Assembly: GCF_003609605.1 (NCBI RefSeq)
Contig: NZ_MCHY01000001.1
Coordinates: 62,001 to 126,000, forward strand
Direction of reading: 5' to 3'
DNA from: Ammoniphilus oxalaticus
GTDB lineage: Bacteria; Bacillota; Bacilli; Aneurinibacillales; RAOX-1
Length of the DNA stretch: 64,000 nucleotides
In this document: piece by piece, positions 10,580 through 55,800 of the stretch
Layout of the letters: each line of letters begins with the position of its first letter
How positions within the stretch are numbered: position 1 is the stretch's first letter
Notes under the pieces: generated by a model
What the model was told of the DNA's origin: nothing
What the model saw: the letters and a program-made list of their open reading frames with translations, nothing else
Databases searched by the model: none
Translations under genes and position numbers: made by a program

Positions 10580-11260
10580 TTGGACGGGCAATTTTGGCTC
10601 AGTTTTTTGAATATTATTATCATTGATCTCATTTTGAGTGGTGATAACGCCGTCGTCGTTGGGATGGCAAGTCGACGTTTGCCGCCGCCCGAAAGAAAAA
10701 AAGCGATTATGTGGGGGACGGTTGGCGCGGTAGGGCTGCGGATTCTGTTCACAGGGATTATTACATGGTTGCTCGGGATTCCTTATTTAAAATTGATCGG
10801 CGGCTTTTTATTAATTTGGGTTGCTCTTAAATTGTTAACCCAGCAGGAAGATGTCGCTCAGATAGAGGAAGGTCGCAATCTTTGGGAAGTGATTCGGATC
10901 ATTGTAATTGCCGATGTGGTGATGAGTTTAGACAATGTGCTGGCGATCGGAAGCGCGGCGAAAGGGAATTTTGGACTCGTGATTTTTGGGCTAATGTTGA
11001 GCATTCCTTTGTTAATGTGGGGGAGCGCCGCGATTGCAAAGTGGATGAATGAATATCCGATCCTCGTCTATTTTGGTTCGGGGGTGTTAGTTTTTGTGGC
11101 CACATCGATGATGCTGGAAGAACCGCTTTTGATTTCGTATTTGGCGGGGTGGAAGTTACCTTACCTCGACACGCTGATTCCGATTATGGCGACAGGTTTA
11201 GCGCTGTTCATAGGAAAGTGGCGGCGAAACAGTTTATTCACCTTTCATCATGTAAAATAA
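10580..11260 (+). CDS. TerC family integral membrane protein (YjbE-like)
   Basis: Multi-pass membrane protein of the TerC family, members of which are linked to metal (manganese) efflux or supply to exported proteins. The 226-residue product shows the family's two acidic membrane motifs, DLILSGDNAVVVGMASR near the N terminus and DVVMSLDNVLAIGSAAKG in the middle, with about seven hydrophobic segments. I prefer the TTG at 10580, seven bases after GAGGGGGGA, which starts the protein as in relatives (MDGQFWLSFLN); an ATG at 10550 is in frame but overlaps a GGAGGTG. Lies just downstream of the repeat array. Confidence 0.88.
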   Translation: MDGQFWLSFLNIIIIDLILSGDNAVVVGMASRRLPPPERKKAIMWGTVGAVGLRILFTGIITWLLGIPYLKLIGGFLLIWVALKLLTQQEDVAQIEEGRNLWEVIRIIVIADVVMSLDNVLAIGSAAKGNFGLVIFGLMLSIPLLMWGSAAIAKWMNEYPILVYFGSGVLVFVATSMMLEEPLLISYLAGWKLPYLDTLIPIMATGLALFIGKWRRNSLFTFHHVK

Positions 11261-51299: not shown

Positions 51300-51608
51300 A
51301 AACCATATTTTGCGCGCGGATTTAAACAGAAAACCAAAGCTGCTAAGTTCCCCTTTTTCAAACCGGTAGATGAGTTCGATTTTAATCGGTTACAACAAAT
51401 TTCTAGCGCAACGATATGGGAATTAGCTTCCATTGAATGTTATAAGAAAACGATGTATCTGTAAAGATGAGCCTTCGATCTTTCAGGCGCACCTTTTTAA
51501 CCTTAAGTGGCCTACGATTCTTTCAGCGTTTTACTTCAACTGGTCTAGTATTTTACAAGGTGACTGGTCTACTATTTTCTGATCAGCTGGCCTACTTTTT
51601 TATTGACA
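51300..51608 (+). mobile_element. 3' end of an IS21-family element (istB fragment plus terminal repeats)
   Basis: 51300-51464 encodes AAKFPFFKPVDEFDFNRLQQ and SSATIWELASIECYKKT, the N-terminal part of an IstB helper ATPase, ending in TAA before Walker A. Then four direct repeats TGGYCTAS(T/A)TTTT-type start at 51508, 51541, 51565 and 51588, the last running into ATTGACA; multiple repeats and a CA end are typical of IS21 termini. The element end is probably 51608. Confidence 0.65.
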
Positions 51609-51708
51609 CTCGCAGATCAAAGCCACTGAAGGGATTATCCATTCATTGTTAAATAAAGGATATAAATTTGTCACAGTTAATGAACTTCAGGAATCGGAAG
51701 TTAAATAG
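51609..51708 (+). pseudogene. Polysaccharide deacetylase C-terminal tail
   Basis: Starts exactly at the proposed IS end: IIHSLLNKGYKFVTVNELQE then SEVK and TAG. The LLxxGYxFVTVxEL ending is typical of NodB-type deacetylases. The body is missing, so the gene was cut by the IS insertion or later deletion. Confidence 0.65.
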
Positions 51709-51760
51709 TATTAAGTAAGCGGTAAATTTTCGGACCGCGTAAAATAAATTTACAGCATTC

Positions 51761-51832
51761 CCTTATTCTTCTTCCCAAGCCTTTTGAAAACGCTGGAAAA
51801 CTCAGTGAGATTAAGGGATTGGGAGTTTTTTT
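51761..51832 (+). ncRNA. Candidate structured RNA/terminator (element B)
   Basis: Matches element A along about 69 bases: TATTCTTCT, TTGA, CTGG, AAGGGAT and GGGAGTTTTTTT line up. Outer stem TTCCCAA (51772-51778) with TTGGGAG; inner hairpin CTC-AGT-GAG (51801-51809). Relative to A, three stem pairs change on both sides. Confidence 0.5.
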
Positions 51833-51874
51833 ATGTGTTGGTTATCCTGAAATAGTTGGGTAAAATACTAAAAT

Positions 51875-51930
51875 ACCTTCTGTATAATAACGGCATGCCG
51901 AAAGGCTTGCTCCTTTATTATACAGAAGGT
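51875..51930. repeat. Hairpin repeat, 56 bp, best copy
   Basis: ACCTTCTGTATAATAA and TTATTATACAGAAGGT are perfect 16-bp ends; the middle has CGGCATGCCG, itself a palindrome. Related copies at 38281 and 38465. Confidence 0.85.
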
Positions 51931-52312
51931 ATAACAATAGAAAGCTTGTCACTCGGATAAATAATGGCAAGTATAATTCTATGTCTATAATTATATCCAC
52001 GCCGATGTGAATGAGCGGTTATTTGTCTTTGCTTTTACGATCGAGATCTGCGTTTAGACAAACGCCGAGTGGTTGTTTCTCTGGATTCGATAATTCCGTG
52101 CGGAACCCTGTTTTTAGAACTATTTTAGCAGTTGCTTTATCATGATATTCGTTACAGGAAAGACAGTAAAATATAGCGACCACATCCCTTGAGTATTATT
52201 TACTATTACTTCATAGTATAAATTGTTTCCCTATAAAGAACACCGAAATTGATATTGCGGTTTACCACAAAGATATAGGTAAGATTGAATTGCTTTAAGA
52301 AAGGACTGAATT

Positions 52313-52527
52313 ATGACGATTGAAACAATTTATGCGGAGATGCGAAATGGGATAGATGAACAATTGTTGGGCGTCTAAGAGAATACACATTGAAATTTAT
52401 AATGATTGAATCTTTACCCGTAAGTAAGGAAAGGCAAGAGAAATTAAACAATTATATTTATTTATCTAGAGTGGACCGCAATCGAATTGTGGTATACCAC
52501 CGAATAGATACGTGTTTACTGGGGTGA
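52313..52527 (+). pseudogene. Possible comQ (isoprenyl transferase) 3' remnant
   Basis: One frame ends IYAEMRNGIDEQLLGV at a TAA; after a frameshift it goes on as EYTLKFIMIESLPVSKERQE and KLNNYIYLSRVDR to a TGA at 52525. The pattern (a helix with ID..L..V..Y, then IESLPxSxER..KL..YI) fits the C-terminal end of polyprenyl synthetases. Its place just upstream of the comX remnant is where comQ lies in comQXPA loci. Tentative. Confidence 0.4.
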
Positions 52528-52580
52528 TTATAGGTATAATTAGGTATAAAGGTATATCATAAAAAGGGGATATGTGAAGG

Positions 52581-52732
52581 GTGTTCCAGTCTATTATTGA
52601 ATATTTATTGCGAAAACCTGATGTAATTTAACAGGTGAAAGAGGGGGGACAGCTAGTCTAGTCGGACTATCAGATGTTGAACAACAGGCGCTTGTGGGAG
52701 CGCCTATCACTTCCATGAAATATTGGCCATAG
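52581..52732 (+). pseudogene. comX: Inactivated comX pheromone precursor gene
   Basis: GTG at 52581 reads FQSIIEYLLRKPDVI, then TAA at 52629, then QVKEG. In a G-run (52643-52648) the frame slips by one and continues ASLVGLSDVEQQALVGAP then ITSMKYWP and TAG. Joined, this is about 50 residues with the ComX pattern (II.YLL..P.V...V..G.ASLVGLS..E..A) and a Trp one residue from the end, the residue that is prenylated in ComX. Both lesions would abolish the peptide. It lies 55 bases before comP. Confidence 0.75.
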
Positions 52733-52787
52733 TTGTATACTATAGTCATGACAAAATGCGCTGAAATATGCCTATAGGAGAGATAGC

Positions 52788-55139
52788 ATGAAATCGGTTA
52801 AAAGCCACCATCTGTTTTTATTTCTATTGTTCTCCGTGGTAATCGTGTCTAGTTATTTAATCATAGTCACATTAAAAACGCCTTTCATCGGTTTGGAAGT
52901 AGGGCGAAATACGTTAAACGAGTGGGAAATTACGCATGTGACTGAAATTAGTTGGGCGCAGGAAAAGGGGATTGCCGTTGGGGATCTCGTAACCTCGATT
53001 AATGGCGCATTGCCGAACCATCACCCCACGGTTAAACAATATAGTAACATTGAAAATATAAAGGAAATGGGTGTGGTAAGAAATGGAGAACTATATAGAT
53101 ATGAAGTAGATCGCGTGTTCATTCCTAGTCTGTTTACTTATCATACTCTGTTCCCGACGATAGCAGTGTTCCTCTCGTTGTCTTGTTCTTTATTTTTATA
53201 CTTTAGGAAGAAAAACGATCTAGCGGCGTTAATGCTTGGTCTATTTTTGTGCGTAGCGAGCATCGGTTACCTAAGCGCGGGCGGTTCTGCTCGAGGGGAT
53301 TTTATTGCAAGGACTATAAATAGCATAACTTTTTTGCAAACGCCCGTTATATTTTCCCACTTTTTATATCATTATTTTAAAAGATTTAATATTTTTCTTA
53401 TATCCAAGCGGTTAATACACTTTCTCTATCTTTTAAACGTGGTCATCGTATTAATTAGCGCCAGTTTCATGATAGGTGAATTCGGGCATCTTTTTGTAAT
53501 TGCTAGAGTGGTTTTTCTGCTCGTTTTCTCGATCAATCTCGTTCTTTGCTTAACAGTTATTTCGATGGGATATATTCGGTACAAAAAAACAGTCTACGAA
53601 TCCGTTTTTAAGTTATTAATTAGCGGGTTATCTTTGGTCTTTTTACCCTTCATTTTATTGGCTGCTATCCCAGAAATAATTTGGGGGCAAACGTTCGTAT
53701 CGGGAGAATTAGCTGCTATTTTACTATTAATCCTCCCGGTGTTTTTGACCTATCTCGTCGTAGCCAATCGGCTGCTGGATATTAATTTTGTGACGAGTCG
53801 ACTACAACATTATGCGGTCATCGCCCTCTTGCCGACACTGATGTTCATTTTTTTGCTTCATTTCATTCTACTCGAAGCGACTTTTGGGCAAAGGTTCCAA
53901 TCGGTAGTGATCATTTATTTTGGTCTGATTTTTACTTTTTATATGAAGGAAAGACTAGACTATCTAATTTATCCGAAACTTTTTAAAAAGTTTAGCTATC
54001 TTCAGGCAAACTTAGATCGTTTTGCCCATGACATTGGAAAGGTGATGACGATATCTGAACTCGAACATAGAATCTTGGAAGAGGTCAAAGACGTGCTTCC
54101 GATCAAATCGAGCGCTCTTTTTTCCATACATAAAAGGGATCACTCCGTTCTGTTAAGGAAGGGTGCTGAGGATAATCAGATCGAATCTATTAAGAAGACG
54201 ATCCTAAACGAAGTGGATAAATTTAAGGTTGGTTATCGAATGTCTTTTAAAGACGGCATGCTTATTACGATTGGGCAAAATATTCAGGAATATTATATCC
54301 TCTGGATTGGGGTTAAACAAAATTATGTGGATTTTAATCAGGATGAGAAAAGTTGGCTGAAAGCGATGGCGCATTATACGGGGATCGTCTATGAAAATTT
54401 GCATTTAACTCATCTGAAATTACAAGAAATACAAGAGTCAATGCATAGTCAGTCAGCTCCGCCATGGATCTTAAGGCTTATTTTTAATTTATCGGAAAAG
54501 GAAAGGCGGAATTTCGCGGCGGATTTACATGATTCTGTGCTTCAAGATCAATTATTGTGGTTTCGTAAACTAAAAGATGCTTTAAGGGACCCAACAATGC
54601 CGTGTGAAATAAGACAGAAATTAAAAGAGATAAAGGAGGGTTTTTTAGATGTAATCTACCAAATACGTGAAACCTGTAATAATTTAAGGCCCCCTTTTTT
54701 GGCAGAAAGAGGGTTAGTATCCGCTTTACAGGATTTATTTGAAATTGTCCACCTTCGCTCCGACTATGTCATTTATTTTGACGCCGATCCCGTGCTCGGT
54801 CTCGATGATGAACAAACACTAGCCATTTACCGTATTATTCAGGAACTATTAACCAATGCAACAAAACATGCAATAGCCACCCAGGTGCGCATCACGATAG
54901 AAAATAAAGGCGGGGATCTGAACTTGAGATATGAAGATAATGGAATCGGTTTCGAGTTGGGCAAGTTACAGCGTTCGACCGATCATATGGGTTTAACAGG
55001 GATTTCGGATCGGGTTTTAAGTTTTGATGGAAAAATTAATTTACACTCTTCGCATGGAGAAGGTTTGAGTGTCGAGCTTACGATCCCACTGGCGAATAAG
55101 CATAAAGAATTGATTGCGCAGGGTGAATCATATGATTAA
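52788..55139 (+). CDS. comP: ComP-like sensor histidine kinase
   Basis: Membrane receptor for the ComX pheromone in Bacilli. The 783-residue product (B. subtilis ComP 769) has an N-terminal membrane helix, an outside PDZ-like segment (GIAVGDLVTSINGALP), about eight further helices to residue 385, a GAF-like linker, the HisKA_3 box ADLHDSVLQDQ with His 581, and the ATPase domain with ELLTNATKHA (Asn near 690) and GLTGISDRV. Frame is intact. ATG after AGGAGAGA. Overlaps comA by eight bases. Confidence 0.88.
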   Translation: MKSVKSHHLFLFLLFSVVIVSSYLIIVTLKTPFIGLEVGRNTLNEWEITHVTEISWAQEKGIAVGDLVTSINGALPNHHPTVKQYSNIENIKEMGVVRNGELYRYEVDRVFIPSLFTYHTLFPTIAVFLSLSCSLFLYFRKKNDLAALMLGLFLCVASIGYLSAGGSARGDFIARTINSITFLQTPVIFSHFLYHYFKRFNIFLISKRLIHFLYLLNVVIVLISASFMIGEFGHLFVIARVVFLLVFSINLVLCLTVISMGYIRYKKTVYESVFKLLISGLSLVFLPFILLAAIPEIIWGQTFVSGELAAILLLILPVFLTYLVVANRLLDINFVTSRLQHYAVIALLPTLMFIFLLHFILLEATFGQRFQSVVIIYFGLIFTFYMKERLDYLIYPKLFKKFSYLQANLDRFAHDIGKVMTISELEHRILEEVKDVLPIKSSALFSIHKRDHSVLLRKGAEDNQIESIKKTILNEVDKFKVGYRMSFKDGMLITIGQNIQEYYILWIGVKQNYVDFNQDEKSWLKAMAHYTGIVYENLHLTHLKLQEIQESMHSQSAPPWILRLIFNLSEKERRNFAADLHDSVLQDQLLWFRKLKDALRDPTMPCEIRQKLKEIKEGFLDVIYQIRETCNNLRPPFLAERGLVSALQDLFEIVHLRSDYVIYFDADPVLGLDDEQTLAIYRIIQELLTNATKHAIATQVRITIENKGGDLNLRYEDNGIGFELGKLQRSTDHMGLTGISDRVLSFDGKINLHSSHGEGLSVELTIPLANKHKELIAQGESYD

Positions 55140-55800
55140 GATTTTACTCGTAGATGATCACCCTTCCGTTGGCGCGGGGACAAAAGCAATGATTGAGCAA
55201 GAAGAAGATATGGTTGTGACGGTAACGAATGCCAGTATAAATGTTTTGGAAATGGTGGGGCGGACACCATTTGATATTTTTTTATTCGATTTAAACATGC
55301 CTGGGATCAATGGATTAGAATTAACGAGACGGGTAATGGCGATCCATTCGGATACACCCGTTGTGATCTATACAGGTCACGACATTGCTCCCCATTTTAA
55401 TCTCCTTGTTGAAGCGGGAATTGCCGGGTTTATAAGTAAGACGGCATCACAAGAACAACTTATAACCGCCTTGCGTTGCGTCATAAGGGGGGAGAGCATT
55501 ATACCAACCTCGCTTTTTAGGCAATTGAGAAGAAAAGAAGTTCAGGTAGCAACCGAAGAGGGTAACGGAAGCATAGCGGAAATTTCAATTAATGAAAGAG
55601 AACAGAGGATTCTACTGGAAATAGCGAAGGGGAAAGGAAACAGAGAAGTGGCCGAAACCTTATCCTTAAGCCAACGGACCGTAGAGTATAACCTCACAGG
55701 CATTTTTGAAAAATTAGGTGTGCGTTCTAGAGCAGAGGCGATTGCTAAAGCGAGGCAGTTTGGCGTTATTCCTAACGAACCTTTGCTTGATATACAGTAG
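55132..55800 (+). CDS. comA: ComA-like response regulator
   Basis: The 222-residue product has a receiver domain (ILLVDDHPSVGAGTKAMIEQ; phosphorylated Asp 53 in FLFDLNMPGINGLEL; VVIYTG and FISKTASQEQL) and a LuxR-type output helix (LSLSQRTVEYNLTGIFEKLG). The start HPxVxxGTKxxIE and the output end match ComA. ATG at 55132 after CAGGGTGA; longer frame starts inside comP. Should be phosphorylated by ComP. Confidence 0.88.
   Translation: MIKILLVDDHPSVGAGTKAMIEQEEDMVVTVTNASINVLEMVGRTPFDIFLFDLNMPGINGLELTRRVMAIHSDTPVVIYTGHDIAPHFNLLVEAGIAGFISKTASQEQLITALRCVIRGESIIPTSLFRQLRRKEVQVATEEGNGSIAEISINEREQRILLEIAKGKGNREVAETLSLSQRTVEYNLTGIFEKLGVRSRAEAIAKARQFGVIPNEPLLDIQ

Follow-up and report, generated by a model that had tools for sequence, protein, structure and literature searches.

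Does a quorum-sensing locus that has lost its signal gene still listen, and if so, to what? This question is raised by a comQXPA-type locus of Ammoniphilus oxalaticus, which lies within the 64,000-nucleotide stretch of contig NZ_MCHY01000001.1 analysed here (the window), and in which an earlier note had read a broken comX beside intact comP and comA.

Receiver and sender genes of the locus

The following features were assigned, from 5′ to 3′:

52255..52270, forward strand: inverted repeat resembling a ComA box (TTGCGG-4-CCRCAA type), differing at one position from the B. subtilis consensus
52313..52375, forward strand: weak candidate for a remnant of the comQ start, by ComQ profile score
52405..52458 (about), forward strand: scrap of the comQ C-terminus within the open fragment 52360-52524, by ComQ C-terminal profile
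52581..52732, forward strand: comX pseudogene, with PF05952 matching both pieces and the read-through peptide
52788..55139, forward strand: comP, intact, histidine kinase of the pheromone-receptor type, 783 aa (HisKA_3 and HATPase_c)
55132..55800, forward strand: comA, intact, response regulator, 222 aa (Response_reg and GerE, residues 2-222)

The claim that comP and comA are full length was borne out, as both frames are open and encode the expected domains, and the start of comA overlaps the stop of comP. ComP shares 50% identity with a ComP of Aneurinibacillus tyrosinisolvens across residues 2-769, and its phosphoacceptor His is conserved in the ComP alignment. The sensor part aligns with those of other ComPs (47% to locus L034), which is consistent with a ComP architecture. 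ComA is 57% identical to the ComA of locus L035, and its 222 aa fall within the 196-245 aa expected of a Response_reg and GerE protein of this kind.

The region 52581-52732 is a broken comX. Its frame starts with GTG at 52581 and is interrupted by TAA at codon 17 (52629-52631), the frame slips at a G-run (52643-52648), and the second piece ends in KYWP before the stop at 52730-52732; the earlier note had placed these faults correctly. Compared with the open frame of 52-73 codons and Trp near the C-terminus expected of comX, the Trp is kept and the open frame is lost. In a whole-genome search with PF05952 the two pieces scored 19.1 bits (52584-52646, with one TAA inside) and 16.5 bits (52643-52696), each alone below the cut-off of 25 bits. 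Joined into one read-through peptide in which both faults were written as X, they reached 46.1 bits (E 4.3e-12) against Pfam ComX, confirming that the joined peptide is ComX-like.

Much less is left of comQ. Among 1810 window fragments of 20-90 aa, 52360-52524 ranked first when scored with the ComQ C-terminal profile; its score was reached by one of the 1810, taken to be the fragment itself, and by 8 of 2000 shuffles. Against the whole ComQ profile it scored 0.9 bits, a value reached by one of 500 shuffles (349 of which were scored), and Pfam at E 10 did not detect it. For the candidate start at 52313, equally good scores came from 73 of 2000 shuffles and from 53 of the 1810 window fragments. 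Upstream of comX no ComQ body was found (best 1.5 bits in 50.7-52.8 kb), and the ComQ profile at E<1 gave no match in the window locus. Thus, of the possible comQ tail suggested upstream, the C-terminal scrap stands and the start at 52313 is near chance; the suggestion that comQ is dead as well needs no "perhaps" after these profile searches, in which nothing recognisable beyond that scrap remains of the isoprenyl transferase of about 290-310 aa that would adjoin comX. About 1 kb further upstream (51300-52250) holds no convincing gene, and its short frames give the impression of scraps of other genes.

Another explanation would be a sequencing or assembly error that hides an intact comQX in the species. 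One comX fault does sit in a homopolymer, but the stop lies outside any run, comQ is missing too, and comP, comA, gyrB and rpoB are all open in the genome; we therefore consider this explanation very improbable.

As described in PMC4008528, comQXPA of B. subtilis and its relatives has the same gene order and strand as the window locus, the same type of ComP (HisKA_3, HATPase_c) and ComA (receiver and LuxR-type DNA-binding domains) and a ComX-like peptide with a Trp close to its C-terminal end. The window differs in having a comX pseudogene, a scrap of comQ and no sending half.

Search for a replacement sender in the genome

The assembly comprises 3.32 Mb in 13 contigs and is 99.93% complete. 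Searching all of it with PF05952 yielded no second convincing ComX. A third match on another contig (14.9 bits, in a 439-aa frame with a TAG inside) was rejected as being at control level, since the same loose search also matched in 11 of 14 control genomes; no control match exceeded the cut-off. The ComQ profile gave three matches across the genome (53.4, 19.6 and 12.9 bits). The best of them, L155, was rejected as ComQ because it matches PF00348 at 241.7 bits, as an ordinary polyprenyl synthetase does; the profile yields other prenyl synthases, of which the best was checked by Pfam, and no convincing ComQ was found elsewhere in the genome. No intact ComX or ComQ was thus found anywhere in the 13 contigs, and we regard it as near certain that the sender of this comQXPA locus is dead and its receiver intact.

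Production of prenylated ComX requires ComQ. With comQ gone except for a scrap and comX a pseudogene, no prenylated ComX should therefore be made. ComX might still arise if the stop and the G-run were recoded, or with a ComQ encoded elsewhere: both comX halves are ComX-like, the C-terminal Trp is retained and G-runs can slip. Production would, however, depend on getting past two separate faults, and the genome search returned the polyprenyl synthetase L155 in place of a ComQ, which makes continued production extremely improbable.

Related comP loci and ComA-type sites

Altogether 43 loci were examined, comprising the window and 42 relatives; because ComP served as the bait in collecting them, loci that have lost comP are under-represented. 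PAS-type or partial matches (G012, G013:C1, G026 and G281) and second pieces (G061 and G134) were excluded, and L041 (G028) has no sensor-domain match. A first scan of named genomes with ComP alone found no relative. comQ was present in 25 of the 42 relatives. A comX-like frame occurs in 32 of them, that of L127 scoring no more than 16-18 bits, and in eight (L037, L119, L122, L129, L135, L139, L145 and L150) both were absent from the stretch examined beside comP. The lack of comQ at L123 and L151 means little because contig ends cut both loci upstream, and in some of the ComP genomes for which no ComX is listed, one too divergent for the profile may exist. ComX-like matches in G213, G302 and G186 (20.8-22.7 bits) were rejected, the site being occupied by a different small Cys-rich frame. 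Loss in the opposite direction also occurs: a ComX match without a ComP match was found in nine genomes (G548, G549, G552, G573, G577, G582, G598, G615 and G486, the last with a doubtful ComX).

The closest ComP relative is that of locus L034 in A. tyrosinisolvens LL-002, with which the window ComP pairs in a tree of 42 sequences. L034 resembles the window in having comX directly 5′ of comP and no adjoining comQ; unlike in the window, its comX is intact (87.1 bits, Pfam ComX), comA does not adjoin and the genome holds a second locus, L035. The latter consists of comQ, comP and comA, with an 18-codon frame ending MEYWV in the position of comX, so that the two loci form a split system, one with comX-comP lacking comQ and comA, the other with comQ-comP-comA lacking a normal comX. 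The 18-codon frame lies in the comQ-comP gap (about 10800-10940), 3′ of a ComA-type composite site and TATAAT, and is a candidate truncated comX or mini-pheromone.

Eight ComPs, the window and L034 among them, form a clade with a support of 93 (labels as printed after midpoint rooting), within which comQ and a comX-like frame occur together in two loci, L120 and L132, the comX of L132 being weak (24.5-27.2 bits). The sensor-part and kinase-part trees disagree, L122 adjoining the window pair in the former. Two further observations concern individual ComPs. In L039 (G022) the phosphoacceptor His column holds Q, unique among the 42 ComPs, and no comA was found beside comP. Four genomes of genus g85 (L129, L135, L139 and L145) carry a further ComP of only about 730 aa, accompanied by ComA and by no adjoining comQ or comX; these shorter ComPs form one branch of the tree, and comX is present at other loci in the same genomes.

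The B. subtilis ComA site is given in PMC4797271 as TTGCGG, 4 nt and CCGCAA, often with further downstream elements. The repeat at 52255-52270 is the sole one-mismatch box in the 64-kb window, 42 nt 5′ of the doubtful start at 52313; the further element seen in the sites of relatives is missing here (2 of 6). Genome-wide, one-mismatch boxes numbered 6, against 9 for the reversed control, and a ComA regulon defined by the canonical box was rejected as not exceeding that control. Composite ComA-type sites, matching in 15 or more of 18 letters, were found seven times in the 43 loci, with 0.15 expected (one strand scanned). Five lie just 5′ of comX or comQ (L034, L126, L120, L035 and L131) and two downstream of comP (L118 and L151). 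Judged from these sequences, the sites before signal genes of relatives may reflect positive feedback on pheromone production; B. subtilis is described without feedback on signal production in PMC7794433. The candidate box in the window could now drive comPA alone.

Selection on receivers without a sender

In G585 the gene order is a neighbour gene, comQ, comX, comP and comA. In four genomes of family f5 (G017, G188, G604 and G568) the same neighbour lies directly 5′ of comP and comA, no comX pseudogene was seen, and the spacers align, so that one shared deletion explains the loss of comQX. The neighbour, a membrane-protease-like gene, putatively of the CAAX-protease type, was rejected as a new partner of comPA because the comQX-bearing sister G585 has the same neighbour. 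Like the window, these genomes combine intact comP and comA with no ComX match in the genome (at E 0.01); unlike in the window, comQX was removed cleanly, the removal is common to four genomes and selection is measurable.

All four genomes have an open comP, with dN/dS of 0.09-0.24 (Nei-Gojobori, six pairs) for the whole gene, 0.10-0.29 for the sensor part and 0.06-0.19 for the kinase part; comA gave 0.045-0.086, and comP in pairs with the comX-bearing G585 gave 0.10-0.13. The ratios for the three G017 pairs are rough because dS is near 1, and the highest comP value belongs to the closest pair in the clade. The family of G017 holds 136 comP genomes, from which six loci and that of G547 were read, not as a frequency sample. 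These data strongly suggest that comPA remains useful once comQX is gone and that selection can keep such a receiver where no sender is encoded beside it, its input being perhaps the ComX of others or a different cue. As the clade belongs to another family, the result may extend to comPA of the window by analogy only.

For the window itself, rates were compared as the window branch over the Aneurinibacillus branch since the split from A. tyrosinisolvens. They were 0.64/0.35 (ratio 1.8) for whole comP, 0.62/0.44 (1.4) for its sensor part and 0.65/0.25 (2.6) for its kinase part, with about 0.21/0.15 (1.4) for gyrB, based on 12 of 13 genomes searched, and 0.14/0.06 (2.2) for rpoB. The whole-gene and sensor ratios lie inside the gyrB-rpoB range and the kinase ratio slightly above it, which would indicate no clear relaxation, relative rates proving neither relaxation nor its absence.

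The somewhat fast kinase part is one of the points that would fit a dying locus caught midway, in which comQX was lost first, comPA has not yet been damaged and nothing is sensed. Decay is indeed under way, given the two comX faults and the near-complete loss of comQ, and the receiver side decays too in loci of the ComP family: comP is broken by several stops beside an open comX in L126 (G061), the one broken comP among the 42 relatives, and is interrupted beside an open comX in G547 (L193), where the interrupting sequence resembles a transposase gene. Yet both small faults in the window fall within 150 bp of comX and none across the about 3 kb of comPA, and the four genomes described above display selection on comPA without comQX. 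We hold the dying locus to be possible, though rather doubtful.

We favour, as the probable reading, a comQXPA quorum-sensing locus minus its sender, with the receiver comPA still at work. ComP and ComA most likely still function: the membrane domain of ComP would receive a signal, ComP would phosphorylate ComA, and ComA would switch its target genes. As the strain has no ComX of its own, the trigger should be an outside signal or another cue, of which ComX from neighbours would be the simplest candidate. Such a listen-only state can last, as in the G017 clade, where comQX was lost in a shared event and both comP and comA have since stayed under purifying selection. The proposal that the strain listens without speaking is therefore a fair reading of a locus whose sender half is lost and whose receiver half is whole, made credible by the four selected comQX-less genomes; no measurement supports the accompanying term "cheater", which would mean that the strain profits from public goods supplied by other cells. 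More tentatively, receiver-only ComP-ComA pairs might be a stable type that arose several times, in lineages that gave up their own prenylated pheromone and retained, under selection, the means to hear the ComX that other species make; the window would be one case in which the remains of the sender are still readable.

A ComP-ComA pair is also reported, in a passage of PMC8895600, from Chloroflexi in which the ComQXPA pathway is incomplete; both are receiver pairs, the Chloroflexi case being a distribution of orthology groups in another phylum, described in that passage with neither a decayed sender nor a test of selection. No description of a decayed comQX adjoining an intact comPA was found in those portions of the open-access literature that were searched. 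Social-evolution theory expects listeners to displace speakers at times. Natural listener-only loci kept by selection would make this expectation testable, and the comQX-less clade with its comQX-bearing sister G585 would be a ready test system.
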